A stretch of DNA of 64,000 nucleotides. It comes from Ilex aquifolium (Eukaryota > Streptophyta > Magnoliopsida > Aquifoliales > Aquifoliaceae). The stretch covers positions 8,026,001 to 8,090,000 of the forward strand of contig OX637402.1 in the NCBI GenBank assembly GCA_951799425.1, given 5' to 3'. The first letter of the stretch is position 1, and every line of letters begins with the position of its first letter. Position numbers and translations under genes: made by a program. Below are positions 1,078-64,000 of the stretch, piece after piece. The notes beneath the pieces were generated by a model that was not told where the DNA came from, ran no database searches, and was given only the letters and a program-made list of their open reading frames with translations.

Positions 1078-3828
1078 TGTAAAACCCGAGGTAATTTAAA
1101 CTTTTGAGAAAAAATGGCAAAACGGTAAATTGCCATTACGGTACAGGTTGTAAACCTGAATTTTTCTAGAACTCGGATGACGAAACGGACCTCACCGTTG
1201 GATTCGTCTCGCGAAATCTAGTTACCACGTCAAATTTCGTGGAATTCCGAGATAGTCGGATTTTTCGCGTTTTACGAGACGAACGGGCCCCGGGTGACCC
1301 TGTACACGAAATTTTTATAAAGTTTCCAGGTTTGGGGAAATATTAAACACAAGTTAAAACAAAAATAATTCGAACTTGAACCGGAGCGAAATTTAATCGT
1401 TTCGGGATTAAAACGGACCCGGAATTAAATAGGACGTGTGGCGAATTGTGGGCCAAGTATTCTAAAATATAAATAGGGGGAAAAATTAGATTTTTCCCAT
1501 GGTTCAGCCGCTTGCACAGCCGATAGAAAAGAGGAGAGGGAGAGAGCTTGAAATCTTCACTTCTCTCTACGATCTAGAAGGCTACGAAGCTCGGATCCAT
1601 TCGGGCCAAGAAGTAAAGTCGGTCTCCTCGTCGAGGGCTACGACCACGTACCAAAAACGAAGGTTTTCACCGAAGGAAAAAGGGGCGGGATTTTGAGAGC
1701 TTAAGATTGGGCTCGGGTTTGAGTTCTAAGAGCTTCTCCACGTCGTTCCTCACGCTTAAAGAGGTAGGGTTCTTTCCTACTTGGGATTATTTTACAACTT
1801 AGGTTGTTATATGTAATGTGAATGTAGTAAAATGGGCATGTTGATTATCAATGTTGTGAAATTGATGGGTAGTTGGATAAGTTCATTATCAATGACTTGT
1901 TGTTGAGAAATTGATGGAATTTGGTGATGGGTAAAACGGGTATATGAAATTAACCCAATTTAAGTGAAATCCCTAACTTGGGAAGTGATGGGTTGCAATT
2001 GTTTGTGTAAATCCATGGAATAGTGTGGTGGGCATGAATTGTGATTATCATGCGGGAATGTGAAATTGCTCTAATGTGAAATTATGTGAATTATTGGCAT
2101 ATGCTATGTGATGATATGCTTGTAAATAAATGTTGAGTATGAAAATGATAAGTTATGTTAATTGATATATTGACATGGCTATGAAGTTGGTAATTATATG
2201 CTTAGGATATAAATTGCTATGATTACGTTAGAATAAGATAAATGTTGCTCACATGGCATTCATTACATGGGGCATGACATTGAAGTAGCATTGGTGCATT
2301 ACAATGCATGTGTACACAAACATCGCATTATGGGTGTGGGTGCATGGTTGAGTTCAAACACCACATAGGTGGATGATGGTGGGCTCGGGAAAGTTGGATT
2401 GAACATCCGGCTGAGTCTCATGGTTCATGGAAAAAGGAATTGGGTCGGGGTAGTAAGAAGGGCTAGACTCGCCCTCGGGTGTGAGACCCGGTGTGACGGA
2501 TACGCACTTCCGTTGGTATCATAGTCCATAAAGTGTGTCGGTGTACACGGAACCGTTGGCGGAAGTCCATGAATTCCGTGTCGGTTGGGCGACCGTTGGT
2601 GCAAGTCCATAAAGACCCACCCCAAAGAAAGACCCGGGTGTTTTAAATGATAGTCATTGTGTGTGAATTAACAATGGCGGGGGCTTGGGAAAGCCCGATT
2701 TTAAACTCATGGCATTGTATGGGGGATAGGAGCCGGTGAGGGCTCGGATTGAGTTGCATGGGAGAGTCTCATCCCATTTCATGGCATTACATGCTAGAAA
2801 TCCAACATTTGAATAGTATGTTGTGGTTGTGATGTTGTTGGTGTGAAGTGTTGCATGAACATTGCATATGCACTTAGGTTGGGGAGTAGCCCTTGTAGGA
2901 AATACTCTACTGGGCGTGGCTCACCCTTTATGGGAAACATATTTCAGGTACGGGACACCCCTCGGAGGAAGGACCTTATATGGGACCCCAAGGATGAAGA
3001 AAGCCGGAATGTGGCTTCTATTTTGAAGTTGTGTAAAACTTTTGACAAACACATATGTTGGCATGTAAATATATGAAAATTCCGCTTTTGATGTGTAAAT
3101 ATGTGGAATTGTACGCTATGGAACTTGTATGGAACATGTATAATGTAGAAAATATAGTTATACATGTTTGGGATGGAATTGGAATGGTTTTGGTTGAATT
3201 GGAATTGAAAAACTAAGGAAGGAAGAAATTCTGGGCAAAACCCTCCGGAAGGTCACTAACACCTTCCGGAAGGTTAAGGCAGAATTGAGATCCAGAAGGT
3301 AAAACCTTCCGGAAGGTTGAGTACACCTTCCGGAAGGACGACTCGTTTCATTTTCAATCTATTTTCCAGAAGGCAAAACCTTCCGAAAGGTGAAGAAAAA
3401 CCTTCCGGAAGAACCTTTCCAGTGAGCAAAACCTTCCGGAAGGTTGAGTACACCTTCCGGAAGGTCGACACGTTTTATTTTCAACTTATTTTCCAGAAGG
3501 CAAAACCTTCCGGAAGGTAAAGAGAAACCTTCCGGAAGAACTTTTTCAGTAAGCAAACCTTCCGGAAGGTTGAGTCAAAAACCTTCCGGAAGGTTCTCCA
3601 AAAATTTGAAATTTTCAAAATGCTTAGCCATGTTTTGGGCTTTGTTTTCTTTGGCTCATGTGACATAAATGGACATAAATCGAGGTATAATTGAACTTGT
3701 GGATGGTAAATCCAGTTAAAGGCAAGTGAATGACGTGGTGTCGGGTTATAAGACAATCACGAGTATTTCCGCGGGTTGACGGATGGTCAACGGTTAATAA
3801 AGGACCCCTGGGTTTTTGGGGCGTCACA
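1078..3828 (+). mobile_element. solo LTR, family A copy 1 (2.75 kb)
   Basis: TG...CA element beginning TGTAAAACCC and ending GGGGCGTCACA, flanked by the perfect 5-bp duplication GGGGG (1073-1077 and 3829-3833). It carries no internal domain, primer-binding site or polypurine tract, so it is a solo LTR. A TATA-like sequence (ATATAAATAGG, near 1467) suggests plus-strand transcription. Both ends match the inverted copy at 34129-36823. The long LTR and its terminal motif resemble Tekay/Del-type chromoviruses; that family assignment is inference only. Confidence 0.88.
3240..3600. repeat. array of about 12 CCTTCCGGAAGG palindromes
   Basis: About a dozen near-identical copies of the 12-bp palindrome CCTTCCGGAAGG, separated by short spacers that include a conserved TTTTCCAGAAGGCAAAA. 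The array lies in the right-hand part of family A solo LTR copy 1. The corresponding place in copy 2 (34398-34650) has a different palindrome. Confidence 0.95.
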
Positions 3829-3959: not shown

Positions 3960-4400
3960 AACATCAAAATTTGCAATTCGCAAAGTGAGGACGAGTGCGT
4001 CACTATGTGGGTGATGAATTCCGATTAGATATTGGTAAAAAAAACTAATTTTTCCTTCTGTTCGATCGGTTCTGGATCTACGCAGCCTTTTGGATGTATG
4101 CCTGAGCCGAATTTTGTGTGGTCATGTGGGGGTTAGTAGCTGCATGAATCACATTGATTACTCCCGCTGGTGTCGGCCTCTCCTGGGATTGGTGAGCTTT
4201 TCCCTCCTAGTCAGGCTTTCCGTAGTTTCTATCTATAAACTGTGAGAGGTGCCTATCTTGGACCAACTCCTCAAGGTTCTGCTTTAAGGAACAGTAGTTC
4301 TTGGTCATATGCTCCACGTCTCGGTGATAAGAACACCTGAAGTTCAGATTTCTCTTCGATGGATCTCCCCCCAATTTGTTCAGCCATTTGAAAAATGGTT
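3960..4400 (-). pseudogene. retroelement gag C-terminal part (G1)
   Basis: On the minus strand this encodes a Tat-type gag tail. A zinc-knuckle-like CSYHRDVEHMTKNYC is followed by SLKQNLEELVQ, matching the nucleocapsid end of this lineage. It is separated from the rest of gag on its right by the hAT-like MITE and from the protease on its left by the SINE and solo LTR. Fossil. Confidence 0.7.
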
Positions 4401-4454
4401 TACCTTAATCTGGGATAGGATTCTGTAGATCGGCTCTTTGACAACCGTGTTCAC

Positions 4455-9470: not shown

Positions 9471-11297
9471 TGATGAACACAAAATATTGTATATTTGATG
9501 GCCTCATTACATGCATTATAAAATCAACTTTGTAATTAATTACTTATAGTTAGCCGAAATTATGAATAATGTTGAATTTTTGATGTTACAGTAATTATAG
9601 CTTAAATGATGGATTTTAGAACCTTGCAACTAAGTGTGGATGTGTGGTGAAGGCATGGACACATTACTTGAGGATTTGGAGGCTTAAAAGTGAAAGAAAT
9701 CAAGGAGGTATTGGTGTTTGGTAACAAAGGCACCAGCACCCACACCATTTGGTTGTAGTACCTCGGTTTTCCTGCATTTTGACCATGATCTACTTTGAAT
9801 CTGAAAAATTGTAAAACATGAAAGTTGTAGATCTGGATGTCCTGCGTATTGTGTCAAAATTTCAGCTCAATCGGACGGTTGAATCAAAAGTTATGACAAT
9901 TCTACGAAAACTGGTCCGGAGCAGAAGAGTACCGGTATGCTGTACCGGTACGATTTACCTACTGGAGTTCGACGTACCGGTACACTCTTCTGAAACAGCC
10001 CAAAATACCTGTAAGTCTTCTCCCACTTGCTTGGGGGTCCCACCTACACTTCTCCCACTTGTCCCCTGACTTCCCTTACACATTTACATGCCTCCCATCA
10101 CCCATGCTTGGACTTTGGAGACATTGGCATTAATGGGGATTAGAGAGAAGGGGGCTGCCAGGGGAGTTGCTGGGTAGGCTGCTCCTAGCCTATCCAAGCC
10201 ATCATCTAACCTCCCATTGATGGGAGGCCTGCACACAGGCTAGAGGGACCACCATGGACGAAATTACAAGGCACTCACACCATATATTCAGCATTCACAC
10301 AAGAAAAAGGGGTGGCTACCTAAGCTTAGAAATCTCCTAAGGAAGATGATGAATAGTTACATATAGAAGTTTGTATTTTTGCATTTTCCTCTCCATTTCA
10401 ATTGTAGTTAGCTTTAAATATCTTGTAATCTTTAATTCTTGTACGTTAATCTTATTTATTTCAACTGTATTTCAAGTTTAGTTCCATGTTCTTGAATCTA
10501 CCATTAATGCATTTAAGTTTTCTTCATTTTCAAGCTTTGAAATGGGTATTGAATATTTTTCTTCTTAGTTTAAAATTTCTTGCATTAATTTAAGTTTCAT
10601 TCTTCATTTCAATTATGTCTCTTTACATTATGCATTTATTTCTTGCTTAGCATGAGTAGCTAGATTTTTAAGTTGGTTAATGCATGGGAGAACTCCTCTT
10701 GGGTGTGCCACTTCAACTCATTTTCATTCCTCCTCTCAGAGTACGATAGTTCGGTTTGACTGGGTTGAGAGTGGATGCGGTTGTGAGTCTTTGATATCCC
10801 GTAGGCCTGGTCACGGGTTATGCTTGGATCCTCACCTCCATTTTATCCCTAGCTTCCCACGAATCAATCGTTCATCTAAGCTCTATTCGAGGAAGGCTTC
10901 GAGTTGATTTGGGATTCCCATTGGAGTGAATCCTTCGGATTAGCTAACACTTGTTTTCTTGCATTTTCATTAAGAACAAAACTCACCAAAACCAACTACA
11001 AGATTTTACACTATTTATTTTTACAAAATCACCTTCACACACTTGAACTTTCCTTCCCTGAGGAGACGACCTTGGAATACTTTTTCAAGTAAAACATGAC
11101 AAACAAAAGACTCCTTGCGCTTGGGGAGCACTTTTGTTCACACACATTACATTTCATACATTTCATTCATCCACCATTCTGTTGCCCTATTTCCCACATC
11201 ATTCTGAGGGAGAGTGACACTCCCTTCGCACCTACATCATATACACATTAAAGGATGATATTAGGAGGTTATGAACAACAACGGTTTTCACCAAGCA
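9471..11297 (+). mobile_element. solo LTR, family C copy 1
   Basis: TGATGAACAC...CACCAAGCA, 1827 bp, inserted in E2 gag and flanked by ATATG (9466-9470) and GTATG (11298-11302), a 5-bp duplication with one mismatch. It is homologous to the inverted solo LTR 43860-45459 and to the 5' LTR 47842-49566; all share CCTGAGGAGACGA-CTTGGAATA and a GTGACACTCCC-like block near the 3' end. No internal domain. Small ORFs inside it are not credible genes. Confidence 0.85.
9925..9995. repeat. GTACCGGTAC palindrome module in family C LTR
   Basis: Three ACCGGT-centred palindromes (TACCGGTATGC, GTACCGGTACG, GTACCGGTAC) surround the non-palindromic CTACTGGAGTTCG. The same composite module is found in the unrelated family B LTR at 53070-53125. 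Confidence 0.9.
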
Positions 11298-12290: not shown

Positions 12291-12884
12291 GTACGCTATA
12301 ATTGAAAAAGAGTTCGTTATTGATTCAGAAAGCTTCTCCATCAGATGGTATTCCTGGCCCTTCTCCTTACCCGCCGGAGTCGAGTTCTTTTCTGTAACAC
12401 CCCGCATTTTATTTTATATAGGTATATAGATATATAGTAAATAATTGTTGTAAAAATATGGATATGTGTAGTGACGGTAGGAATAAAAGCAAAAACTAGA
12501 GATACAAATTGATTGGGAAGTTAAGTTTCGAAGGTGTGTAAACTTGAGAAGAGGGATTATGAAAGTTTCTAAATATTTTTAGGTCAAAATAAGTTCTCCA
12601 TTGAATCCGGAAGGTCGAAAAATATTGGGAGAGGTAATATGGGGTGTATTGAAAGCTAGGAAGTATTCCGGAGTGAAAACACACTTAGAGAAAATTTGGG
12701 TAAAAAAGAGTTGGGATACCTTCTAGTATTTAAGTCATAACTTTTGATCCTGATGTCCAATTGATCTGAAATTTTTACAGTAGATAGTAGACATCTAGGG
12801 CTACAAAAGTGTATCTCATGAAAATTTTCCAATTCGACCTCTAAATGGGTCAAAACTGCCCTGGAAGTCGAAGTAGCCGAAGTG

Positions 12885-12970
12885 TACCGGTACACAGTAT
12901 CGGTACGGTACCGTACCGGTACGCCCGAACCAGTAGCTAAACCGTACCGGTACAGCGTACCGGTACGCCC
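12885..12970. repeat. GTACCGGTAC palindrome module in family B LTR
   Basis: Five GTACCGGTAC-type palindromes in about 85 bp, with a complement of CTACTGG between them. Read on the minus strand it parallels the modules at 9925-9995 and 53070-53125. Confidence 0.9.
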
Positions 12971-13961
12971 GATAAAATTCGGGATTTTGGTGTTTTAAAA
13001 CACCCTTTTAAGCCTCATTTGACCCATTCTTCCATCCCACTCTCACCCCAAACATCTTAAAGCCCTAAGAGAAGAGAAAATGAGAGAAAAACACAAAGAT
13101 CTTGAGAGAGTTAACCCTTATAGAGATCAAAACCGAAATTTCTCAAGAACACCATTCTTCTACTCTCTTCTTCTACACTTTCACTACACCCTTACCCACA
13201 CCTCTTGGAATCCTAGAGAGAGTCTTAGAAAAGAATAAAGAAGGAGAAAACACAAGATCAAAAGGGAAAAACAAAGGAATTAAGAGTGATTCAAGATCAA
13301 ACCCTAGATTTCAAGAACACCAAGGTAGGGGTTTTCTTCCATTCTTTTACATTGAGGCTATGTTTATTTATATGTATCTCTTAACTCTAAATGTTATATG
13401 TATGCTATCCCATCCTTAATTCTTGATATTCTTGCAATTGATGCCATATGGAAAATATTGTGATTGTTGGGTAACCCTTGAATCTCCTTGCTTGCTACCA
13501 AACCCTAGTCTTCAAGGGAAATGTGTTTGTCTCTTGACTTCTCTTTTGTTATTAATTTCAATACATGATTGTTCCTTTGTTTTGAATTCTAAGCTTGATA
13601 TTCGATACTTGATATTCTTTATTCTTGGTTCCAAGACTTGAGTGTTCTTTTGGTCTTGATTTCTAAGCTTCAAAATCATTTGTTCTTGATTCCATACCTT
13701 GATAGTCGTTTGTTATTTATTTTCATACACGATTGTTCCGTTAAATCCTAATTTCTCCGTTGTCCATGACTTTCAAGCTTGGTGTGCCTTTATTCTTTAT
13801 ACTCCAAGCTTAATATTCATTTGTAATGATTCCAAGGTTTGATTACTCATATGTTCTTGATTTCAAAACTTTAGTGTTTCATATTGAACAACAAAATGGT
13901 ATTTATGGTGATCTCATGTATTTTTCTTAGTTGGTTGTGGAATTGTTACATGTTATATTTT

Positions 13962-14680
13962 GGGGGTGGAGGTTACCCTAAAGTATGCCACCTACCGAAA
14001 GAATGGGGGTGGAGGTTACCCTAAAGTATGCCACCTACCGAAAGAAGTGTGAGAGGTTCCTTGTAAGGATGCTCACCCCTTCCCAAGAGGTTCCTTGTAA
14101 GGATGCTTGGGAAGCAAAGATGATCTAACAGGGGGTGGAGGTTACCCTAAAATATGCCACCTACCGAAAGAATGGGGGTGGAGGTTACCCTAAAGTATGC
14201 CACCTACCGAAAGAAGTGTGAGAGGTTCCTTGTAAGGATGCTCACCCCTTCCCAAGAGGTTCCTTGTAAGGATGCTTGGGAAGCAAAGATGATCTAACGA
14301 GGGGTGGAGATTACCCTAAAGTATGCCACCTACCGAAAGAAGTGTGAGAGGTTCCTTGTAAGGATGCTCACCCCTTCCCAAGAGGTTCCTTGTAAGGATG
14401 CTTGAGAAGCAAAGATGATCTAACGGGGGGTGGAGGTTACCCTAAAGTATGCCACTTACCGAAAGAATGGGGGTGGAGGTTACCCTAAAGTATGCCACCT
14501 ACCGAAAGAAGTGTGAGAGGTTCCTTGTAAGGATGCTCACCCCTTCCCAAGAGGTTCCTTGTAAGGATGCTTGGGAAGCAAAGATGATCTAATGGGGGGT
14601 GGAGGTTACCCTAAAGTATGTCACCTACCGAAAGAATGGGGGTGGAGGTTACCCTAAAGTATGCCACCTACCGAAAGAAT
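13962..14680 (+). repeat. two-module higher-order tandem array
   Basis: Module M1 (about 41 bp, GGTGGAGGTTACCCTAAAG...) occurs about nine times and module M2 (about 83 bp, GAGAGGTTCCTTGTAAGGAT...) four times, mostly in the order M1-M1-M2. Units are nearly identical, so the expansion is recent. M2 itself contains GAGGTTCCTTGTAAGGATGC twice. The related LTR at 51342-53278 has only a short array of the complementary core. Confidence 0.95.
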
Positions 14681-15265
14681 TGTTGAAATAGTGTATGGTG
14701 GACTGGATTATATTTGAAACGGTTTGCTAATTGTATAGTGGTTTCACTTATTCATTCAATTACTGTTGTTCCTTAAACTTGAGATCTATTTAAATGTCCT
14801 GGTTTTACTTCAAAAATTATATATGATATTTGTGAAATGAGACCTACTTGTTTTACATGTTTTCTAAACCTTGTTTGAGTTTGGGAGGATTTTCCTACAG
14901 AGCTTAGTGCTCACCCCCTACAAACCAACACATTTTTCAGGTGATGCTGTAAAAGCGGATCAGTTTAGAAGATGAGTAGGGGGATCCGGAGAGGGATATC
15001 TCGACGGTCCTTCGTTGTATTAGATTGAAGGGTTATTTTGGGATCATGTAAAATATAATCTTTTATTATTCCGCTGCTAAGTTACGTTTAATTCTTTTGG
15101 GATGTAATTGCCATGATTTGGCTTATTCTTTTGGGATAATGTTATGGACATGATATATGATGAATGAAATTTCTTTATTTATGAAATTTATTTAGTCACT
15201 CTCATGTTGTGAATGGTCTCGAATAGTAATGCCGTCCAGGGTGTGTTTTGGGGTGTTACATTTTC

Positions 15266-30829: not shown

Positions 30830-33412
30830 TCAAACCTCGTGATTAAGAGACGGGCGCAAGCTGACCTTCATTTCAACATCTGAATTACTAAGATGTCTTG
30901 GAATGCTGCCCTGTTCCATTAGATATTTAACCCTTGATGAAGTCCTGGCATCCTCCGACAGTTTTAATATAGCCACTTTTAACAATAAATGGTTCTTATC
31001 ACTTGCAATAGGAAAATTTCCATTGTGAACCATCTTTTTTAATACGTCAAAAGCCAAAGTTGGGTCTGAGATGAATATAAAAGCATCTATGAGCCCAACA
31101 TAGACGAAAGGGTCAGGTGTTACCTGCTTTTCTTCCATCTCCTGCAAATGCAGCAGAGCATCATGTGGCCTCCCACACTTGCAAAGCCCATGAATTAGAG
31201 CCATAAAAGCAATTCTGTTTGGAGAACACACCTTTCTCCTCATATTGTTCCAAAGGCTGAGAGCATCATTTGGTCTTCCAGCATTGCAAAACGCATCTAC
31301 TAAAGTTGTGTAAGTAATAACATTAGGCTCCCGTTCTTTTCCAACCATTCTTGAATAGCAAAGAATGGCTTGATCAATATCACCATTTTTACACAATCCA
31401 TCAATGAGTGAGTTGTAGGTAACAACTGATGGAACAAGCCCCTTCTCCAGCATCTCATTCAGAATATCCTGGGCTTCGGATACTCTTTTGGCCTTACACA
31501 ACCCATTTATTACAATGTTATATGCAACCACATCAGGACCATAGCCATGAGCACAAATTTCTCTGAATAACTCAAGTGCTTTGTCCACTTCTTTAACCTT
31601 GAGAAAACCATCAACAACTGCAGAATAAGCAATTATATCAGGGAGGAAACCTTCTTGAACAATGTCAGCAAGAAAGCCACGAGCCTCAACTGCCTTCCCA
31701 TGGTTGCACAGTTTCTTTACAAGCAGTGTAGAATATTTTATCCATGGCTCATGCCCATGAGCACGCATCAGTCTTATTATGTCAAGGGCTCCTGCAGTGT
31801 CCGCTCTTCTACATAAGCACCCAAATATGGAATTGTGGGTAAACTGTGTAGGTTCAAATCCCGATTCCTTCATCTTACTCAGAAGCTCAAAACATTCCTC
31901 CAATCTATTTGAATTGCTCAAACAATCAATCAAATTATTATAAAGTAATACACTACGTTTACAACCAATTCGATCCATTTCTAGAAAAAACCCTAGAGCC
32001 TCGTCCAACTTATCAGTCCGACACAAACCATCAATAACTATTTCAAAAGAAGTGGTATCCGGGCGAACAAATTGCTTAACCATGAGTAGTCTTTCCACCT
32101 CAACATCACCATCAGAACTATCCCCCATTCTTGCCCATAGTAGATGATAAGCCTTATCAGTAGAACCATAATTAACTAGACCTCTCAGAGCAGAATTATA
32201 TAGCACAACCATAGCTTCCGAATCCAGATCCTCCTGCCCTTTCTCAAGTAGTTGCATCATTTCTTTCTCTCCAGACAAACATGACATAATCACTGTAAGT
32301 ATTTTAACATCAGGACAAATGCCCATCCTTTTCATCTGGGTGTACAAGCGCAATGCTTCTTCCATATCCTTATTCTTGCATAGGCCTCCAATTAATACAT
32401 CATAAACTGAAATGTCAGGAGCAAAACCCAATTCCTGCATTTTATTTAAGAGTTGCAGAGCCTTATCCACTCTAGACTCTGTCACAAAGCCATGAATCAA
32501 TACACAAAAGGTCTTCTCATTCAAGTTAATCTTAAGTTCTTCCATCCTTTCAATCAATTCAAAAGCCTTATCCACCTCTCCCCACTTGCTAAAAGCGAGC
32601 ACCAAGATCGCCAGCACATGCCCATCAACCCAATCCTTGGCATACATTCGATTAAACACATCCAAAGCCTTTTCAAACTTCCCGGCATTGCAGTAACACT
32701 TCAAGAGTGGTGTCAACGCGTACTTATCCAATTGCAACCCCACATCACACATTTCTTTCACTCTGTCCTCAATTAAATCAACTGAATTAGACTTGGAAAT
32801 AGCTTCCAACAAACAGTTATAACTATAGCTATTCGGAATGCAAAGACCCATCTTTTTTACCTGATCAAAAAGCCAATTGGCTTCATCAACCAAACCTTGA
32901 CTACCCAAACACCTTACGAAGAACCCCAAAGCCCCCGGTGTCATCCAACACCGAGAATTCACCAAATCCGTCGCTAGTATTCTGAGTGGGACATTTTGTC
33001 CAACACGTGATAGGATGGAAGCCATAACATTATAAGTATAGCAATTGTGCCTATACCCATATTGATTTGATGCCCAGCTGAAGAACATCTGAGCCAATTT
33101 CCAATTCTTGAATCCTTTCAGCACATCTTCAACAATTTCAGTAGTGAGTTTTGATCCGAAGTCTTCGAGTTCTTGGCTTTCTGGAGAAAAGTCCCTACTA
33201 GTGAAGATGGAGATGAGTCCATCCCTGATTATAGTATGGCCTGGAGGAATAGAATAATGGAGACCGAAATTGTGGGTTTTGGAGCAAATGTGTTTTGAAG
33301 ATGGTGGGAAGTGTCCGTGTGTGGAAGATAACAAGAGGAGAGGATTACAAGGGTTGTTTGGTTTGGCTGATTTGAAGAGAAAATGGAATCTGGTGAATTT
33401 TAAAAGTGCCAT
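30830..33412 (-). CDS. P-class pentatricopeptide repeat protein, predicted organellar
   Basis: An 860-residue intronless ORF, the only complete host gene here. The N-terminus (about residues 1-60) is rich in Ser, Arg, Lys and hydrophobics and nearly free of acidic residues, as in a mitochondrial or plastid targeting peptide. About 18 PPR motifs run from residue 122 to 802. The clearest are 628-662, 663-697, 698-732 and 733-767 (VVTYNSLIDGLCKNGD type), all 35 residues long, hence P class. Residues about 369-452 are degenerate. There is no E, DYW, SMR or LAGLIDADG domain. Such proteins bind single-stranded organellar RNA and affect its stability, splicing or translation. The C-terminal repeats recall Arabidopsis At5g08310 (annotated mitochondrial); that orthology is from memory. 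The start is the first ATG of an uninterrupted frame. A gag-only retroelement begins 312 bp upstream. Confidence 0.95.
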   Translation of the reverse strand: MALLKFTRFHFLFKSAKPNNPCNPLLLLSSTHGHFPPSSKHICSKTHNFGLHYSIPPGHTIIRDGLISIFTSRDFSPESQELEDFGSKLTTEIVEDVLKGFKNWKLAQMFFSWASNQYGYRHNCYTYNVMASILSRVGQNVPLRILATDLVNSRCWMTPGALGFFVRCLGSQGLVDEANWLFDQVKKMGLCIPNSYSYNCLLEAISKSNSVDLIEDRVKEMCDVGLQLDKYALTPLLKCYCNAGKFEKALDVFNRMYAKDWVDGHVLAILVLAFSKWGEVDKAFELIERMEELKINLNEKTFCVLIHGFVTESRVDKALQLLNKMQELGFAPDISVYDVLIGGLCKNKDMEEALRLYTQMKRMGICPDVKILTVIMSCLSGEKEMMQLLEKGQEDLDSEAMVVLYNSALRGLVNYGSTDKAYHLLWARMGDSSDGDVEVERLLMVKQFVRPDTTSFEIVIDGLCRTDKLDEALGFFLEMDRIGCKRSVLLYNNLIDCLSNSNRLEECFELLSKMKESGFEPTQFTHNSIFGCLCRRADTAGALDIIRLMRAHGHEPWIKYSTLLVKKLCNHGKAVEARGFLADIVQEGFLPDIIAYSAVVDGFLKVKEVDKALELFREICAHGYGPDVVAYNIVINGLCKAKRVSEAQDILNEMLEKGLVPSVVTYNSLIDGLCKNGDIDQAILCYSRMVGKEREPNVITYTTLVDAFCNAGRPNDALSLWNNMRRKVCSPNRIAFMALIHGLCKCGRPHDALLHLQEMEEKQVTPDPFVYVGLIDAFIFISDPTLAFDVLKKMVHNGNFPIASDKNHLLLKVAILKLSEDARTSSRVKYLMEQGSIPRHLSNSDVEMKVSLRPSLNHEV

Positions 33413-33723
33413 TTTATAGAGGATTGAATGGACTTGACTCTGACATTAGATAGCAATCCAAAGTTGCTGGAGAAGAAGTCTAGTAATGAAATTAGACTTA
33501 ATGTTAATGTACCATCCAATATGAGAATTTAAAATTTGATTCGTATGACGCAGTGAGAGATGAACGACATGTTATTCCCCAGCCCAGGATGAAGAGAAAA
33601 AATAAATCATTATCTTTATGTCGTTGTAGTTTTAATTAGATCTTGTATTGTGCACTATTCTTTTTTATATTTATTAGAATTTTAGTTAAGTGATAATGAT
33701 TTACTAGGCAATATATTTGGTAG
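33413..33723 (-). promoter_or_regulatory. 5' flank of the PPR gene (UTR and proximal promoter)
   Basis: All that is left of native upstream sequence before the TR-GAG element. I see no strong TATA box at a fixed distance, which is common for PPR genes. An AT-rich stretch at 33600-33720 and a Pu-rich leader are visible. It ends with GGTAG (33719-33723), the target duplication of the insertion. Confidence 0.5.
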
Positions 33724-34128: not shown

Positions 34129-36823
34129 TGTAACGCCCCAAAATCCGGGGGTCCTGTTAATAACCCATCAACCCGCGGAAACATCCGTGGATATCGTTCA
34201 ACCCGACACCACATCAAGAATATCTTTAAGCCGGGATTATAACCCATAATGAAAATTCGGTTTAACATTCATTTAATTCAATTAAAGTCTCATACACCGT
34301 GGTTTGTACCCCATTAGGGTCCACTTTGATCATTTAAAGGAAGGAAATTCAAAGCCCAAAGATTTGGCAAAACATTTAAAAATTTCAGATTTTTGGAATG
34401 ACTACCGGTAGCTGTTTATCGACTACCGGTAGCCGAAACATTCTGGAAATCAACTACATGTTGTCTACCGGTAGCTGTTTCCTTCTGGAAAACAACTACA
34501 TGTTGTCTACCGGTAGCTGTTTCCTACTGGAAAACAACTACCTGTTGGCTACCGGTAGCCGAAATATTCTGGATCTACGACTACCTGTTGGCTACCGGTA
34601 GCTGTTTCCTTCTGGAAAACAACTACCTGTTAGCTACCGGTAGCTAAAGGCAGATTTTGTCCATTTCATTAGTTTTTCATTTCCAACTCATTTCAAACCT
34701 TCCCAAGGTCACCCAAAACATGTATAACAAAGTTTCTTACCTTATACATGATCTCTTCAAGGTTCTATTATAAGTATTCAAATATGATTACAATATTTAC
34801 ATGTCATAAACCATTTTAAAACAAAAGGTTTACAAAATCTTGAGGTAAGGCCACACATAGGCCCCCTTCACCCTTGATGCTCTCCATGGGAGTCATCCAC
34901 CGGTGCCAACCCCACACCTGAAATTGTTCCCGTATAGGGTGAGCCAACGCCCAGTAGAAAACTTCCTACAAAGGCTACTCCCTCCCTAGATGCTCATGCT
35001 CATGCAACATTTATGTATAGCACATAACCAATCATTTCACATAAGGATATGCATTCAAAATTAGAATGCAACAATGTCATGCCATGAAATGAGATGGAAA
35101 CTCACTCATGCAACTTCAACCCGAGCTCTCCCCAGCTCCCCAACGCATGCAGGTGTCAATGTAGTCGAAACCGCCATTCTTGTTACACATCAATGACGTT
35201 AATCACTCTAGGGTCTTGTATAGGGGTGGATGTTCATGGGCTTACACCAAGGGTCTCCAACCCACACGGAATTCACGGACTTCCACCGAGGGTTCCGGAT
35301 ACACCCACACACTTTATGGGCCGAGCCAAGCGAGTACGTACCCCAATCACCGGGCTTTGCACCCGAGAGGTCGTCATGCCTCTTCTTGCTACCCCAACCC
35401 AATTCTATTTCATGCATACATACGACCCAAAGGAATCTTCAATCCCTTTCTTCCGAGTCCCTTTATCAATTACCAAGAGTGGCATTTGACTAACCATGCA
35501 CACCCACACTCACACCCATGACATGTGTCCATGAATGTGATGTCATGACCATGCTCAAAATGCAATGACTACCATATGAGCAACATTTCCCACACTCATG
35601 CATATAGCTCATGAATGTGATGCCATGATCATACCCAATATGTAATGTATACTACATGAGCAATAATCAACACATATCTTCACATTCCATGGAATTTAAA
35701 TCATAAGCATATAAATTCCATAAACCATCATAAACAACATATCAATGAGCATATGTCAACACATCCATAACACATTCCAACATGTGATTCCAATGGCATC
35801 AAACAACCATTTAAACAATCAAGGCATTTTATCAAACACCTTATAGGCACAAATTATAAACACATAGCATGCTTATCCAACACTTTCAAGGCACATTTCA
35901 TAACACATAGCATGCCCCCAATAGCCATAAGTCACATAATGAATTACATGTAACATCCTTAAATCAAAATCAAGCTAGGATCTAGCCTAAGCCATTTCCA
36001 TGCTCCCTTTTTCACTTTTATTCCCATAGACACATATATATAAGACAATACATATGCATATACAACTTAATCCTTAGTCTAACAACAACTAAGGTAAGAA
36101 TAGTCCAAGGTAGGAAAACCCCTACCTCAATAGAGATGTAGGCAACCTCTATACACCAAAACCAACCAAAAAGCTTTGATCTCCCAAATTTCTTCCTTTG
36201 AATATTCGGTGAAATCACTCCCCTTTTGGTACGTAGACGTAGCCCTCGACGAGTAGACGAACTTTAACTCTTGGACTATAGCCTTCCAACCAAAGGAACT
36301 TGGTGGATCTTGAAGAAGAAAGGTAGAAAATTATGTTTCTCTTTTCTCTCTCCTTTTTCTCTCCAACGTGTGAGCTCAGCCGGCCAAGAGAAGAAGAAAA
36401 TCTGATTTTTCAGATATTTTGGCCCCTATTTATAATTTTAAATGTGTGGTCTACATCGCACCACTCGTTTATTACCTTCGGGTCCGTTTTTCGTCCCGAA
36501 ACGACTCATTAAGTCCCGGATTAAGTCCAAATAAATTTTATTGGCACATTAATCCAATTATAAGGAATTTTAATATTTCTCATTTTTGGGGACCTTTAAA
36601 AGGTCAATCGCCACGCAGTCGTCTCGATCTACGTGCAAAATCTGACTCTCTCGGAATTCGACGAATTTTCTGGTGGTTACTAGATTTCGCGTTGCGAATC
36701 CAATGGCGAACTTCGTTTCCTCGTCCGAGGTCTAGAACATACGTATTTTAAATACGCACAGTAGTGGCAAAATGACTATTTTGCCCTTTTTCGGAAAAGT
36801 TCAAATTTACCCGGGTTTTCACA
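34129..36823 (-). mobile_element. solo LTR, family A copy 2 (2.70 kb)
   Basis: TGTAACGCCCC...GGGTTTTCACA on the plus strand, an inverted copy of the LTR at 1078-3828, flanked by ATTGT (34124-34128) and ATCGT (36824-36828). The empty site is preserved in the 3' LTR (AAGGCCATCGTTGCCATTC), which confirms the boundaries. No internal domain. TATA-like TTATAAATAGG on the minus strand near 36425. Small ORFs inside are not credible genes. Confidence 0.92.
34398..34650. repeat. array of seven CTACCGGTAG palindromes
   Basis: Seven copies of (G)CTACCGGTAGC with spacers containing TTTCCTTCTGGAAAACAACT. The array stands where copy 1 of this LTR has CCTTCCGGAAGG repeats; the flanking sequence and the TTTTCCAGAAGG spacer are conserved between copies. 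Confidence 0.95.
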
Positions 36824-40536: not shown

Positions 40537-41106
40537 TGATGGGTCAAGCCCAAATAGCCCAGTTTATGTGAAAAGGCCCAACCTCGATTGAAGAGCCCAA
40601 CCATGCAAAGACCCATCAAGCCCAAGTTCAAGTCAAATCCAGCTGGGGCTCTCCTCCAAAGGAATTGGAATACGGGGGAGAGAAATGCGGCGCACGGAGA
40701 AACCCTACCAAATTTATAATTACCAAAACAAGTAGGAAATCCCTCCCTCACGTCACCGCCTCACCTAAAAACCCTAACTTTATAAATGTAAGCCCTCTCA
40801 TCATCTAGGGCATGCCTCCCAAAAACCTCCTCTCCTACCTTGCACAACATTGTTGTTCCTCTCTCCCTCAAAGCACTGTAGCTCTCCGGTGTAAACCCTC
40901 TGGTGACGATTATTCATTAATAAAGAACACCAAGGCCATCGTTGCCATTCAAAGTGGACGTAGGCCACGGCCGAACCCCTATAAACCTCTGTGTTGATCT
41001 TTTATTTGCTATTTTGGTCATTGATTGTTTGTTTACTGCACATTCATCAATACCTATTCACCTTCTTGACTGTTGAACTTGCACGAAACCAATTTGTGCA
41101 TCATCA
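40537..41106 (+). repeat. 3' LTR of the TR-GAG element
   Basis: TGATGGGTCAAGCCC...GCATCATCA, 570 bp, and an undisturbed copy of the site where the 5' LTR received its solo-LTR insertion (near 40929-40944). Confidence 0.95.
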
Positions 41107-41903
41107 GGTAGTATAACTTATGTGGTTTCATTATTTTGTTTTTTGTATTAATAGTTGGTGCACGTGTGTGTTGTACGTCAATTATTTTAATTTTTTTTTT
41201 TATAAAAAAATAGAGAAATTGGACTAATTTTCTTTATATGGAGATGATAATATATTACATGATGATTGTTGAATTTTATGGGGCTTACTTGTCCACTCAA
41301 AATTTTTCTTATATTTTAGGTTGTATAAACTGAATTGCAAAAGGTTAAATTTTTTTTTTTTGAATTGAATTGCATTTAAAAACTGTAATGTTTTACTTCA
41401 ATAAGAGATTAATAGTTGGATGACTGATGATTTATTGAACTAATAAGAAGTTATTACAATAAGTCATTATTGTATTTTTATCTTTTTAAGGATAATATTA
41501 TCAATTAAATTATTTTGACAAGTATTGACATTCAAAAGTAGTATATAGATTATTACATCTATTCAAATATTTATTTTTTAATGAATTTGGATATCCACTA
41601 TATACCTATAAACATATGATGTAATTTGGTGATTATTTAATACAATAGAGGAGAAATCAATGTGCTAAATGTTAAAATCGTCTCTAATCAACTTATTCGG
41701 ATCAGAATGAATATCTATTTTAACGAATTCATATATGCGTTGTGAAAAATAAAATTCGTTAGACAATTGAATAGGATTCGGATCACATTTTTTAAATAGG
41801 ATTTGGATCAAATTTATATTGATTGGAAAGAAGATAATCAAAAGTCAAAAAATGAATTTATTAGTTGAATTAATGCAACTAATAAAAAAATAAAAAAAAT
41901 CCT

Positions 41904-47841: not shown

Positions 47842-49566
47842 TGATGAGTGTGGAACATTGCATATTAAGCATCTTCATTGCATCAAATTTAAATTTTTTT
47901 GTAATGAATTTTTTGGGAAATGGATTCAAATTGACAATTAATGGAGACTGGCCTGATTACAGGTGATTTGGTTGGAAAGGCAGGCATAAAGCACCCCATC
48001 AAGTGATCGAGGTCAATGGGGAAGAAAGGACCTCATGACGGATGGCTTGGGAGTTCAAGGAACCAAGAATTCCAAGACAAGGGAAGACCTACCTGTAGAA
48101 GCCATGCAAGACCTATTGGTATAATCCATGCAAGACCTACCGGTAGAAGACTTGAGAGCTACTGGTAGAAAAGCCTACTGGAAAGCAACTACCAGTGCCC
48201 CTTGCAAGACCTACCGGTAGCATACTCTACTAGAAATAAACTATTGGTAGGTCACTTACGAGCTACCGGTAGATGATGCCCAGAAAGCCCAGGGTCACCC
48301 AGACCCTTCTCCAAACGACTCCTCCAACTACGGGGGCCCACCTTTTGTCATCTAATCCATGCTTTGATATCTCTAACACCTCATGATGATCTCCTAACCC
48401 CTACATTTATATTTGAAGCATGAGGGAGTGGGGAGCCAAGGGAGAGAGAGAGAGTGGTTGGAAAGCATGGGAGGACCACTCTTTGACTGATTTTGGAAAT
48501 TTTTGTGGACAATCTTTCTCCAATCACTCCAAGTCAGCCACTCATGCTATGAGAGAGGGGGATGAATGAAATTAAAGGCTGGCTACACAAAATTTCAGAT
48601 TATCATACTTTTAGAGAGTGAAGGTCCAAGGTAGAAGATGAAGTTCTAGAGAGAGAAAGCTGAGTTTTACATTTTCCTTCACCATTTTCATTGTAGTAAG
48701 CTCCGTTTCACATGTAATATTTTCATTTTGTACTTTAATCTCTTTTAATCAAGTTGTAATTATGTTTAGTTAAGTTTTCTAGTGGTTCATTTCTACATTT
48801 GGGTTCTATTTCCTTTAAACTTTACATTTTGAGTATGAATGGTTTTTCTTTTGTAGTTTAAACCTTCTCTTACATTAATACAAGTCTATGCTTGATTTTA
48901 CTACCATGTTTCTCTACTTCATATTTGTTCTTGCTTTTATCACACGTAGCTAAACTTTTAGTTGGCTAATCCAAGAGGGATTTCCTCTTAGGTATGTGAA
49001 ATTGACTCTCTTCTATTCTTCCTTGTAGTGTAAAGTGTTTGGTTTGACTAGGTTGAGTGCGGACGTGATTGTGGGCTTTTGATATGCCGTAGACTTATCA
49101 CGGGGTATGCTCTTGCCTAACACTACTACATTAGTCCCTCACTTCCTACGAATCAATTAAACACCGAGACACCATTGGTTGAATGAAATGAGTCAATTTT
49201 GAATTCCCATTGGAATGACGTCTATGGATTAGCCAACCTTGCTTTCTTGCATATTTCTTAACTTACAACTCACCAAATTTCAAATCACATGATTTTCTAA
49301 TTTTCATTTTTTCACAAATCACTCTTCAAACACCCGACCTTGCCTTCCCTGAGGAGACGAACTTGGAATACTCATTCCAAGTAAAACACAAACATTGCAA
49401 GTCTCTTTACACTTGGGGAACACTTTTGCACACACACGTTTTTGTTCATCCACACAATTTTCCCACTTCTTACATTGAACTTGAGGGAGAAAGACACTCA
49501 CCAATCTATATAAGTCATATACAAATAATCGGGTTCGAGTTAGAAGTTAGGGAAAATGATCAAGCA
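47842..49566 (+). repeat. 5' LTR, family C
   Basis: TGATGAGTGTGG...GATCAAGCA, 1725 bp. The start aligns with TGATGAACACAAAATATTG of copy 1 and the end matches CAAGCA. CTACCGGTAG-type palindromes lie at 48100-48270. Confidence 0.78.
48100..48270. repeat. CTACCGGTAG palindromes in the family C 5' LTR
   Basis: Four perfect and several degenerate (CTACTGGTAG, CTATTGGTAG) copies, in the same part of the LTR where copy 1 (9925-9995) has GTACCGGTAC. Confidence 0.9.
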
Positions 49567-50037: not shown

Positions 50038-51257
50038 TGTTGTCCGACTTTGATATTGACAATTTACGTGCAAGTATAAACGATCAACAAGTACTAAAGT
50101 GATGAGTAGAGTATCGTTCCCACAGAAAATTATTACTAATAATTTCCAAGTACTAACTTTATATCAATTCTATTTTATTTAATCAATTGAAATTAAACTA
50201 TGAAATTACTAATTTAAAAATAAATCTAAAACTACTAAACAAGGATTGATTCCACCAGATAAAAGAACTTAAGATTACAACTTCCCCTAATGTTTCGTAT
50301 AAATCTTTTCACTCTCCTTCCAGTTAATTAATCAAAATAAGTTGTTAACTGAGAATTCAAAATTATTTATTAAACCTCTTCCGATGGTTAGATAAAAATA
50401 TCTCTCCCAATTAAATCACTGTATTCCTATGCAATATAAATTGGAACAGATTCATTAAGCTCAAACTCTCATAAAAGTTACGCACGACATATAGGTGTAT
50501 TCCTATCCTATACACAAACCCAGTTAGGCCTTAGAATTCACCTTCCAATTTCATCTAGGGAATCAAATTAATTGCTGGCCAAACAATCATATATCAAACA
50601 CAAAATATGATAAACAACTTATGTATGATTAATAATAACTGAAAATGAGAACAAATTAATTTAACTATACATCAGTTTCCATTGCAATCTTAATAAAAAA
50701 AATTAGTTCATAACGTAATTGAAAAACATCATCCTCAAATTAATCAACACCTCAGAAAATCAAAAACTAAAAGTAAGAGAAAAGAATGAAACTGTGTTGC
50801 AATCTTTAATCTCTCTCTAGCCTCCAATTCTGATCTCCTTCGCGTTGCTTACTTCGATCTTTCCCTTTAATTCACTATCAATCATTGGTTCTCTATGTGT
50901 TAGCATCCCTCCTTAACAGTATATATATCAACCCTAACATGTGTGTAGCATGAGAGTTCAATTCCTACTCAAAAACAAGTCAGAACTCGTATCTCAAGCT
51001 GAAGCCTGCGCTGCAACCCCGCAAAACAACGCATCAGCGCCGATCAATTTCCATGGGCGCAGCTGCCTTTGTTGCTCAGTCCTCAATTAATCCAAAACTT
51101 AGGCTATCAAATGACCTTTTTTTCCTTCCAAATCATGATCCCTACAAAACAAAATTAAAACACACAAAACGAATAAAAATGAACATAAAATACTTGGAAA
51201 CTCGCAATTTCATCAAACCAAGAATATTCAATTCGTAGGTATAAAACTCACTCATCA
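50038..51257 (-). repeat. 3' LTR of the Athila-like element
   Basis: TGTTGTCCGACTTTG...ACTCATCA on the plus strand, 1220 bp, homologous to 62059-63314 throughout. Confidence 0.9.
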
Positions 51258-51300
51258 AATACCCACAAACTTAAATCTTTGCTTGTCCTCAAGCAAAATA
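51258..51300 (-). promoter_or_regulatory. polypurine-tract region of the Athila-like element
   Basis: On the minus strand CTTGAGGACAAGCAAAG is followed by TTTAAGTTTGTGGGTATT and then the LTR start TGATGAGT. This is the conserved Athila context (TTTAAGTTTGGGGGTRTTTGATGAGT) in slightly decayed form. Confidence 0.8.
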
Positions 51301-51974
51301 CTAAGAACAAAAACTATAAAAATTAACTCTAACAACCAACTTGTAACGCCCCAAAATCCACCTTGGACGGCATTACAATTTAAAACCATTCATATCATGA
51401 GAGCAACTAATAAATTTCATAAACAAAGGAACTTTCATTCATCATCCAAAAGAATAGACCAAACCATGGCCATTACATCCAAAAGAATATGCCCAACTAT
51501 GGCAACTACATTCCAAAAATCAACTATTAATTTGCAGCGGAATAACAAAAATATTAATATGAACAATATTCCCAAAAGGAATCCCCTCGTCTAGCACGTA
51601 ATAAGCAAGATCCTATATAGTTCCCTCCGGATCTACATGCCCATCAGCTTGAGTTTCCCAAGGCACCTGCTCATCAACTCCGAGCCCTTCCTCTAAATCA
51701 TAACCTGAAAATATATTATTTGTAGGGGGTGAACACTAAGCTCTGTAGCCACATCCTCCCAAACTCGAACAAGGTTTAGAAACATATAAAACAAGTCGGT
51801 CTCGTTTCACAAATATCATATATATTACTTTTGAAGGAAAATCATGACATTTTAATAGATCTCTAGTTTACGAACAACAATAAAGTTAAACGGAGAGGGG
51901 AAACCAATTATCAACATGGAGCCATACAATTTCCCAAAAGTAAACCAATAACTCACACATGATATAATATGGTT

Positions 51975-52112
51975 CTCTTTGGCATGAGCATCCTTACAAG
52001 GAACCTCTCACCCTCAAGGTCTTGTTTCTTTGGCATGAGCATCCTTACAAGGAACCTCTCACCCTCAAGGTCTTGTTTCTTTGGCATGAGCATCCTTACA
52101 AGGTGCCTCTCA
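51975..52112 (-). repeat. 51-bp tandem repeat, about 2.7 units
   Basis: TTGGCATGAGCATCCTTACA... repeats at 51-bp spacing (51981, 52032, 52083). The core GCATCCTTACAAGGAACCTC is the complement of the M2 core of the array at 13962-14680. Confidence 0.95.
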
Positions 52113-53069
52113 CTCATGTTCATCAAAACAACCATACAAAAATACAATATCCACAATTTCTCAAAAACAACAAGCCATTCCCAAAAAAAATTCCCAAATT
52201 TCTCATAAAGTAGCACAATAGAGACAATGTGAGAAAATATACAAGAGATCCTCATGAATATCATTTTGTGATTCAATTTCAAGCACTAAAATTTTTGAAT
52301 TCAAGAATCAAGGAAAAATCAAGAGAAAAACCCCTTTTCCTTGAGAATTAGGGTTTGAGACCAAGAAAAGAGTTTTAATGGTGATTCCACCATAGCATTG
52401 TTTAAAACATGACCACGTTTGCATAGATATCAAGAATCAACAATTTCATAGCAAGTATATAAGATTTAGAGTCAAAAGAATGTATATATATGTATGCCCT
52501 AGCCTCAATGCAAGAGAGTGGAAGAAAACCCCTACCTTGAATCAAGATTTCCAAGCTAAACCCAAGCTTTATAGACCTCCTTCCTCCATTTTTTTTCTCC
52601 CTTAGTCTTCCTTTAGGGTTCTAAGAGGTGTGGGTTGAGAGTGGATTGAAAGAATAAGAGAAAAATGGAATGAGAATGGTGTTTTAAGCCTGCCCATTCC
52701 CGATTTTTACTGTTTACTGGGCCAAAAATTACATTTTTTCTTGAAATTACAATTTTGCCACTAACTATCTCCATATTGATTTCTATGACCATCCTAAGGT
52801 TTTTAGACGTTCCGAATTCATTTTTAATGTTATTTTATCCTAAAAACATTTAGTTTTATGATTTATCATACTACTAAAGTAAATTTACCGAAATTTTAAA
52901 ACACAAGGCCTATGTATATTTTTAATCGATTGACCTCTCCTAGGCCCAGCATACCACCATCCATAGTATCTATAACATCATTTCAAACTATTTAAGACAA
53001 ATAAGGATGAAAGGGTAGCTTGGGGATAGCTCAGGAGAGGAGGAAGTCAACAAATCAAGAAGTCAGCCA

Positions 53070-53125
53070 AACCGTACCGGTATGCGTACCGGTACGCTAA
53101 GGCTACTGGAGTTCGGCGTACCGGT
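53070..53125. repeat. GTACCGGTAC palindrome module, family B copy 2
   Basis: Three ACCGGT palindromes (GTACCGGTATGC, GTACCGGTACG, GTACCGGTACAC) with CTACTGGAGTTCGG between, almost the same as the module at 9925-9995 in family C. Confidence 0.92.
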
Positions 53126-53619
53126 ACACTTTGCCTGATCTGCCCAAATGCCTTGTGCATTCACATTTCACATTTCCACTCCATTCCAAACCCTTCCAAA
53201 ACCAACCCAAATTTATACAACATACATTTGTATATTAAACACAGTTGGTACAAGTTCTATTATATGTGAGGGTTTACACAACTACTCAAACAATGGATTG
53301 ATATGAATCTGAATAAAAGCCCCAAAAATTACTACATCTAATAATTCACAGGAAGCTTCACAACAGTGTAAAGTCTAAAAATTCAACATACTCCTTACTT
53401 TTACCTCTGCTCATGACCCTCTAAATGCATATGTACATCCGAACTGTTCAAACTAGTTATAACCTAAATAAATCTACGTAATCAAATGCTTCATGGAAAA
53501 TACTCAATATGAACTCTATGAACTTACGTTTCACGTCAATCTCTGCTAATTAAGGCAAAACATATAAGTAGAAGGTATAAAGACTTTTTTCATCTCCCTT
53601 TTTTTTTTTTTTTCTCTTT

Positions 53620-60755: not shown

Positions 60756-61960
60756 TTATTCTGTGCTATGTACTTGGAAAACAGCTCCTACAAATTTGAC
60801 TTTTTTTCCTGTGTGGTGGAGCTTGATTCTGAAAGCCTGGTGGGTATGATTGTCTTGAACCAGAAAGTTGGGCTTGATTATTATTCCAAGAAAATTTCGT
60901 ATGATTCCTCCAACTAAGGTTATAAATGTTGGAATTGTTGCTATATTGTTGCCTGTTGTGGTTACCAATGTATTGTACCGACTCTGAACTAATTGCACAT
61001 TGATCACTTGGATGGTTCCCTGCACACAATTCACAAACAACTGTCATACTCTAAATAGGCTGCACCCCTAAAACATCAATCTTCTTTGTCAATGTAGCAA
61101 CCTGTGCAGCCAATGCAGTAACTGCATCGACTTCATAAATCCCTGATACCTTTGGCTGATTGATCCTTGTAGAGGGCCACTGATAATTGTTGGCAGCCAT
61201 TGTCTCCAATAACTCGCAGGCTTCATCAAAATTTTCCCCATCTATGCTCCACGTGCAGCTGCATTGATATTGCTCCGAGTAGCACTAAACAACCCATTGT
61301 AGAATGTTTGAACTTGCAACCACTTAGGAATGCCATGGTGAGGGCATTTTCGGAGTAAATCTTTGAATCACTCCCAAGCTTTATAAAGAGTTTCAGAATC
61401 ATGTTGTGCCAATGAAGTGATGTCGTTCCTCATCCTCACAGTTTTGGCTGGCGGAAAGAATTTAGCTAAGAATTTTTGAGCTAAATCTGTTCAATAGTAA
61501 CAAAACCCGGCGGCAATGAATGCAACCAACTCTTTGCCTTATCACGAAGTGTGAAAGGGAAAAGTCGGAGTCTAATCGCATCTTCGGTAACCCCGTTGTA
61601 TTTGAACATGTCGCAAATCTCCAGAAAACTCACCAAATGATCGTTTGGGTCGTCATTAGGCAAACCCCCAAATTGCACTGAATTCTGAATCATTTGAATG
61701 GTACCCAACTTGATCTCAAAACTGTTTGCTTGAATTGCAGGCCTTTGAATGCTCGATTGTATTTTTGTAACAAGCGGCATAGCATAATCCCTTAGCGATT
61801 TCTATTCATCTTCAGTCATAGTTTCTTGATTTTTTACATCTTGACAATGCTTTTGCAAGTTTCAGAACTTTCTTCCGATTTCGTCTTTGTACGGTAGTGG
61901 TTCCTGACCTGTAGATCGTGTTTGCATACGAAATTCAAGAACGCCTGCGAAAGCAATTAA
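60756..61960 (-). pseudogene. Athila-like gag
   Basis: Minus strand. The capsid core has SFEIKLGTIQMIQNSVQFGG, DDPNDHLVSFLEICDMFKYN and AIRLRLFPFTLRDKAKSWLH, matching the Athila/Tat gag consensus (H...FLEICDT...RLFPFSLRDKAKxWL). Further along is a knuckle-like CELCAGNHPSDQC. It is split among several frames; fossil. Confidence 0.9.
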
Positions 61961-63314: not shown

Positions 63315-63315
63315 A

Positions 63316-64000
63316 ATTCCTCAATTCCATGGAATGGAATGAGAAAATCCTTACCTACACATTGAGGAATTTGAGGAAATAGTTGGAACATTCATTACAA
63401 ATCATGCCATGGAAGACATGGGACGCATGAAATTATTTCCCTTCTCCCTCAAGGACAATGCAAAAACTTGGTTGAACTCGTTGAAACCCTGCTCGATAAG
63501 TTCTTGGGCACAAATGTTATCCGAATTTCTAAACAAATTTTTTTCAGTGCCCAAGCCAACTGCTCTAAAGAAACAAATTCAAAAATTTTCAAAAAAAACC
63601 CAATGAGCAGTTCTATCAGTGTTGAGATAGATACAAGGACTTGTTACACTCCATTCCACATCATGGATTCGAACAATGGAAATTGGTTAGTTTCTTCTAC
63701 GAAGGAATTACGTCGGGCCACTGACAATTTATTGACATGATGTGCAATGGAGAGTTTTTGAGTAAGGATCCCGATGAGGCCCTCGAGTACTTTAACATAT
63801 TGGCAGAAAATGCCCAATCTTGGGATATCATGGATCCCACCGATGTGTCAAGGTCCTCTTCGGGAAGTCAACCAAGTGGAGGAGGGATGTATAACTTGCG
63901 TGACCAAGAAGACTTACTTGCCAAGATAACAAAATTATCCTGTAAGGTGGAGAGCTTAGAGGTGAATAGGAGGCATGAGGTGTCAAATGTCACGATGGCC
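63316..64000 (+). pseudogene. outer element gag, second part
   Basis: Gag resumes after the nested element: HIEEFEEIVGTFITNHAMED, GRMKLFPFSLKDNAKTWLNS, LKPCSISSWAQMLSEFLNKF. This is the Athila/Tat capsid core (RLFPFSLKDxAKxWLNSL). The later part is in several frames and reaches the window end. Fossil. Confidence 0.88.

Follow-up and report, generated by a model that had tools for sequence, protein, structure and literature searches.

Solo LTRs and Neighboring Features of the Locus

The window considered here, a 64-kb stretch of holly (Ilex aquifolium) DNA, is full of the remains of LTR elements, and four of these are solo LTRs belonging to two families. Family A is represented by A1 (1078–3828, + strand; 2751 bp; TGTAAAACCCG...GGGGCGTCACA), which carries the 5-bp duplication GGGGG on both sides, and by A2 (34129–36823, − strand; 2695 bp), whose duplication, ATTGT/ATCGT, contains one mismatch. 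An empty site for A2 also occurs in the window, where a copy of the host sequence runs without interruption at 40537–41107. Family B is represented by B1 (12393–15260, +; TGTAACACCCC...GGGGTGTTACA; duplication TTTTC) and by B2 (51342–53279, −; duplication AGTTG), the latter nested between long direct repeats at 50038–51263 and 62059–63320. All four elements begin with TGT and end with ACA, and so have the TG...CA ends of an LTR; all are surrounded by the target-site duplications of ~5 bp that mark a solo LTR, and they have no internal coding region of their own. From these ends, one might guess at a Tekay-like lineage. A polypurine tract adjoining A1 was also considered and was ruled out; the G run in question matches the target-site duplication.

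Early work with this DNA, a sequence-only reading by a model, had treated the two A elements as copies of one LTR family. They are indeed related, but their aligned parts are only ~67% identical (834 and 217 aligned positions), and they are therefore better described as related subfamilies. Families A and B have in common a box of ~96 bp with ~70% identity, B being a second LTR family, and three further repeats, C1, C2, and C3, belong to a third repeat family. The putative “sense” orientation used for the LTRs was assigned by TATA-like words, splice-like words, and the box common to A and B.

The window also includes an open pentatricopeptide-repeat frame at 30830–33445 (−) that matches an Ilex paraguariensis protein with 97% identity across 99% of the frame, the next match, from Nyssa, being at 70%. 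By this single gene, the window was placed as probable nuclear DNA of Ilex. A plant C/D-box snoRNA, snoR71, is located at 61330–61436 (+; Rfam RF00097, 59.8 bits), within the element flanked by the long direct repeats mentioned above. It was the sole hit in an Rfam scan of the window at gathering cut-offs, with no match at the arrays described below, and ARAGORN returned no tRNA for the window. A Pfam scan of five ORFs from other elements (18 ORFs were listed) gave retroelement and plant-transposon domains only, and a protein search with two frames that read through the arrays gave no matches.

Palindrome Arrays at a Homologous Place in Family A

The arrays at issue are tandem, self-complementary units that occur within retrotransposon LTRs and in one other repeat family. 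About 12 copies of a palindrome had originally been reported from the first A element, and this was borne out: the A1 array (3241–3595, +) contains 12 CCTTCCGGAAGG-type palindromes, of which 8 are exact copies of CCTTCCGGAAGG, 2 end in GGAAGA, and 2 have one other mismatch. The units are separated by TTTTCCAGAAGG and AGATCCAGAAGG spacers and are organized in a 127-bp higher-order repeat. At the homologous place, the A2 array (34402–34647, −) contains seven CTACCGGTAG palindromes in a 42-bp unit. Seven copies of a longer word had been described for this inverted element; the 10-mer CTACCGGTAG is in fact present in 7/7 units, but its extension to the full GCTACCGGTAGC in only 3/7.

The claim that the two places retain conserved flanks and the same spacer was confirmed. 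Both elements have the outer flank CCAAAAATYTGAAATTTT (A1 at 3598, +; A2 at 34379, −), the outer flank TGAAAAACTAA (A1 at 3206, +; A2 at 34669, −), and the spacer TTTTCCAGAAGG (A1 at 3362 and 3489, +; A2 at 34481 and 34608, −). A rarer spacer variant, AGATCCAGAA, is likewise common to A1 and A2.

One way to account for two different words at this place is that the A1 and A2 arrays arose as independent amplifications of unrelated palindromic seeds or imported segments, with no joint change of the arms at all. Their unequal repeat units, 127 bp in A1 and 42 bp in A2, would be expected on this account, as would the palindrome module, described below, that different repeat families have in common in inverted form. 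However, the outer flanks and spacers that A1 and A2 share, including TTTTCCAGAAGG and AGATCCAGAA, make their sub-unit homologous, and hairpin units in B1 show the same type of arm change around an identical interior. Independent seeding is, on balance, improbable.

Paired Change of the Two Arms

A sub-unit of 36 nt is common to A1 and A2, and one of the three A1 units was compared with one of the five A2 units. The two differ at 10 positions. Four of these lie within the 12-nt palindrome and resolve, with none left over, into two complementary pairs (C-G to G-C and T-A to A-T). Two such pairs would arise in the palindrome by random placement with a probability of 0.0034, and a complementary-pair difference was seen in 0/24 of the other twelve-nt frames of the sub-unit. 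The earlier claim that both arms differ while self-complementarity is kept is thus supported by two complementary pairs, the inner of which is intact in 7/7 A2 units, but it is weakened by the outer, which is intact in only 3/7. Because the arrays are homogenized, the paired change must be counted as one event and not as seven.

A second case was found in B1, where another array (14042–14581, +) is composed of four hairpin units of one type, alpha, and four of another, beta, all with the same 18-nt interior, AGGTTCCTTGTAAGGATG. The alpha units have the arms GTGAG/CTCAC, with pairing unbroken for 5 bp outward; the beta units have the arms CTTCCCAAG/CTTGGGAAG, with pairing unbroken for 9 bp and with a mismatch in one copy. 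When the two types are compared, the interior 18 nt are identical, while 10/12 flanking positions differ on each side; at five positions, both types keep the pair although both of its bases have changed. Random flanks produced pairing of at least 5 in 0.18% of trials and of at least 9 in 0/200,000. In B2, the units found were all of the alpha type, two of them with the exact core.

It had been proposed that homogenization within the arrays acts together with selection for the paired structure. Homogenization and paired change of the arms are both supported by these comparisons, but selection is not established by them, because template switching at a foldback would also change the arms as a block and leave the interior untouched. 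Compensated substitutions at five pairs around an unchanged interior are unlikely to have accumulated stepwise, and the alpha/beta case therefore favors conversion.

CCGG-Palindrome Arrays in Other Repeats

Beyond the two arrays of family A, four more CCGG-palindrome arrays occur in the window, at 9930–9983, 12882–12968, 48089–48272, and 53075–53127. The B1 array (12882–12968, +) has four perfect TACCGGTA palindromes, and the B2 array (53075–53127, −), with three palindromes, can be aligned with it. The C1 array (9929–9983, −) is made up of the same three-palindrome module found in B1 and B2, inverted relative to both. A further inverted repeat, CAGAAGAGT/ACTCTTCTG, bounds the array of C1 (9910–10000, +) and lengthens the stem of its predicted fold. 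The C2 array (48089–48272, +) is again built of CTACCGGTAG, with 3/9 units perfect when all units with at most two mismatches from the word are counted; it shows the reverse of the conservation seen in the module, and its imperfect units carry changes in the core (e.g., TACTGGTA and TACCAGTG). C3 (45036–45307, −), a relative of C1, contains non-palindromic tandem arrays with 24- and 33-bp units. At similar distances from the conserved part of the family, C1 thus has GTACCGGTAC, C2 has CTACCGGTAG, and C3 has its non-palindromic arrays, and the place occupied in C3 is perhaps a hypervariable array site.

The module common to B1, B2, and, in inverted form, C1 spans 55 columns, of which 1/30 palindrome columns and 11/25 spacer columns are variable (p = 0.0005). 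Similarly, when two of the A1 repeats are compared, 1/48 palindrome positions and 12/79 other positions differ (p = 0.017). In A2, every unit in the regular series of 42-bp repeats has the exact 10-mer, and the 32 columns that precede it differ on average by 0.55 per pair, a contrast that is inflated by locating the units through the 10-mer and by first and last rows that lie outside the 42-bp repeat. All of these conservation figures carry an ascertainment bias toward intact palindromes, the arrays having been found by means of these same palindromes. The exchange of whole units (42 or 127 bp) would homogenize the spacers as well, and so something, be it selection or conversion, acts on the palindromes themselves. 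Preservation of CpG sites was also compared in the aligned flanks, where 15/32 are kept in family A, 3/11 in B, and 4/13 in C; at the center of the module, by comparison, B1, B2, and C1 have each preserved all three CpGs.

The relationship between B1 and C1 extends beyond the module. A block of ~120 nt adjoining the array is inverted between B1 (12734–12855, +) and C1 (9777–9897, −) and is 66% identical (E = 9e-11); the alignment of this 122-nt block scores 40.5, compared to ≤19.5 in 500 shuffles. Block and array are each inverted, yet their mutual order is kept, and the exchange between B1 and C1 therefore cannot have been one simple inversion. Amplification of an imported segment had been named by the sequence-only reading as an outcome that would speak against its proposal, and this picture holds in part, in that the three-palindrome module is shared, in inverted form, with another repeat family. 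Decayed arms in most family members had been named as a further contrary outcome; within the window, the instances bearing on it are C2, with its 3/9 perfect units, and C3, with its non-palindromic arrays.

Over-Representation of the CCGG Words

The four most over-represented 8-bp palindromes of the window are TACCGGTA, TATATATA, ATATATAT, and TTCCGGAA. Under a first-order Markov model of the window, TACCGGTA was seen 20 times against 0.25 expected, and TTCCGGAA 10 times against 0.89. Sites of these two CCGG words fall within the six arrays in 30/30 cases, and TACCGGTA itself is present in 5/6 CCGG arrays, across three repeat families. CCGG sites form the center of an 8-bp palindrome in 30/32 cases inside the array limits, versus 5/46 outside, a contrast that is purely descriptive, as the same palindromes served to define the arrays. 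An LBD-type binding motif was considered for TTCCGGAA and was rejected; the word occurs in none of the papers among the matches listed.

The general excess of palindromes in the window is only mild. Those with arms of at least 5 number 97, where shuffled sequences have 80.5 on average and 97 at most, and those with arms of at least 6 number 34, where shuffled sequences have 20.4 on average and 30 at most. As for clustering, at least two near-copies within 200 bp were found for 17/55 palindromic 10-mers, versus 626/5477 sampled non-palindromic ones (p = 0.0001), in a count that excludes A1, A2, and low-complexity words. Of these 17 clustered words, eleven are members of CCGG arrays. When the 30 units that have a perfect 8-mer are considered, the arms remain complementary at pair 5 in 28/30 and at pairs 6 and 7 in 16/30 and 17/30, respectively; beyond pair 7, complementarity is near chance (7/30, 6/30, and 9/30 units).

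Folding and Spacing of the Units

These arrays may also have a cis role, either as two-fold protein sites or as RNA hairpins. Folding of the transcripts had been suggested at the outset as a check on the hairpins, and the predicted folds of the arrays are indeed more stable than those of shuffled sequences, with z-scores of −10.5 for A1, −12.9 for A2, −4.95 for B1, −2.3 for B2, −3.3 for C1, and −4.3 for C2. Such stability would be expected if, once transcribed with the element, the units served as hairpins or as kissing palindromes, with their pairing under selection for dimerization, packaging, or dsRNA effects, and the alpha and beta units do resemble a stem, an internal loop, and a second stem. 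However, any array of palindromes folds well, and the z-scores are therefore no argument for RNA function; moreover, the alpha/beta arrays, taken whole, show no clear gain in stability over shuffled sequences (z = −1.2 in B1 and −2.0 in B2), and pairing alone would need no identical word in B1, B2, and C1. A role in RNA seems unlikely.

Another means by which the arrays could act is as two-fold symmetric DNA sites for a dimeric factor of the host or the element, forming an LTR enhancer or an anti-silencing platform, with the family-specific word arising as factor and site evolve together. Several features of the sequence would suit such sites. The module of B1, B2, and C1 conserves sequence and not complementarity alone, and it is found in both orientations; TACCGGTA recurs from array to array; and, with the LTRs oriented as above, the arrays of B1 and B2 are toward the 5′ end. 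In family A, the spacings of perfect units cluster around whole turns of 10.5 bp (R = 0.76, p ~0.009, 8 distinct spacings). A precedent for arrays of short motifs that diverge together is provided by the VANC targets of VANDAL transposons (PMC5735166).

Nevertheless, the phasing signal is weak outside family A (R = 0.45, p ~0.19, 8 spacings). The pooled spacings give R = 0.65 at 10.5 bp (p ~0.0002, 20 spacings) and a higher value, 0.69, at a period of 10, in a test that was chosen after the spacings had been seen and that counts homologous arrays more than once. Helical phasing of the units is, in short, weak. Furthermore, the A arrays are situated near the opposite end of the LTR from the B arrays, the interior of the alpha and beta hairpins is asymmetric, so that they are not two-fold sites, and C3 has no such palindromes. 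A dimeric factor is thus a possible but doubtful explanation, though a better prospect than RNA hairpins.

Arm-to-Arm Copying as the Favored but Tentative Explanation

The sequence itself shows palindrome arrays, arms that differ in pairs, palindromes that vary less than their spacers, and a module shared in inverted form. To explain them, we infer that the arms change together mainly through foldback copying of one arm from the other, along with tandem duplication and homogenization, and not by a long series of double substitutions under selection. This explanation is tentative, with a probability of roughly 0.4. While an element is being copied, by reverse transcription or by replication, a strand could fold back on itself or on a neighboring palindrome, and the polymerase would briefly take the wrong arm as its template, with the result that the arms match. 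Arm copying of this kind could spread one word along the array, such that a new word would replace the old as a block while the spacers drift. Copy number would be set by tandem duplication, and whole modules would be moved between families by recombination. In the case of alpha and beta, duplication may have given the core a new left flank, which foldback copying then transferred to the right, although this order of events is itself conjectural.

The alpha/beta pattern fits the product of a foldback template switch, and the A1/A2 difference is compatible with one. There is precedent for such events. In yeast, mutations that extend the identity between the arms of quasi-palindromes have been ascribed to template switching (PMC3820800), and template switching is among the mechanisms proposed for the mitochondrial palindromes of Nematomorpha (PMC6649704). 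In both reports, much as is proposed for holly, one arm is rewritten to the other and perfect inverted repeats can arise without functional selection; unlike the situation here, the available text concerns yeast assays and Nematomorpha mitochondria, and not tandem arrays in plant LTRs.

Foldback copying does not account for everything. A mechanism that is blind to sequence leaves the recurrence of TACCGGTA in 5/6 arrays without an account, and the word is identical in B1, B2, and C1 though their spacers differ. The recurrence and the constant word would fit selection on sequence through a binding factor, common ancestry, or module exchange. The outer pair, retained in only 3/7 A2 units, and the decayed units of C2, which have been left unrepaired, also speak against copying.

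Relation to Known Systems

The nearest functional parallel is found in the VANDAL transposons of Arabidopsis, where short VANC-target motifs occur in tandem repeats, diverge together, and differ between relatives (PMC5735166, PMC10398659). Arrays of short motifs in non-coding element DNA that differ between relatives are found in holly as well. In contrast, the VANDAL motifs, as described, have the same orientation and are bound by element-encoded VANC, whereas the holly words are located in LTRs and, being palindromic, have no orientation. The parallel is accordingly one of analogy, and membership in the VANC class is not claimed.

Retroviruses provide a second comparison, their dimerization-initiation signals each consisting of one palindromic loop within the 5′ leader. 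Like these, the holly words are self-complementary and, in the RNA of an LTR element, would be able to pair two genomes; unlike these, they occur as 3–12 units within the LTR. A third comparison is with the tandem enhancer repeats that Tnt1 and other LTR elements have in U3. These are also short tandem sites within an LTR, but their boxes are not known to be palindromes with jointly differing arms.

Among the matches listed in a literature search, which were mostly titles and the beginnings of abstracts, no description of palindrome arrays in plant LTRs was found, and the text on beet chromoviruses (PMC3605345) does not contain “palindrom” or “tandem”. Pattern scans of IMG/VR yielded 0, 18, and 22 stretches, and when these were compared with the window by blastn, 0/40 matched at E ≤ 1e-8. 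One IMG/VR contig, L036, was examined as a candidate relative and was rejected when its repeat proved to be protein-coding: at 4222–4406, eight GTACCGGTAC palindromes lie in an open frame and encode the repeat VPVPRTGTL. Possibly, and this is a guess, they are iterons inside a replication-type gene. The Ty3-type pol frame of the window had no match among the viral contigs; searched against genome contigs, it matched two loci, neither of which has a repeated 10-bp palindrome.

Significance of Jointly Changed Arms

Covariation of two arms is usually taken as proof of selection on structure. The holly window offers two cases in which the arms differ and pairing is kept, with signs that this may be owed to copying between the arms. 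At stake are the distinction between selection and templated conversion and the possible use by plant LTR elements, as by the VANDALs, of fast-changing motif arrays. At its most far-reaching, and with little likelihood, one could conceive of arrays of CCGG-centered two-fold sites that are interchangeable across the retrotransposon families of one plant genome, each family with its own word, switching as a block, co-evolving with a dimeric factor, and being swapped in either orientation. If this were true, such arrays would be to LTR elements what the VANC anti-silencing system is to VANDALs. The jointly changed words of these LTRs may, in any case, show how palindromes stay matched or what they serve.
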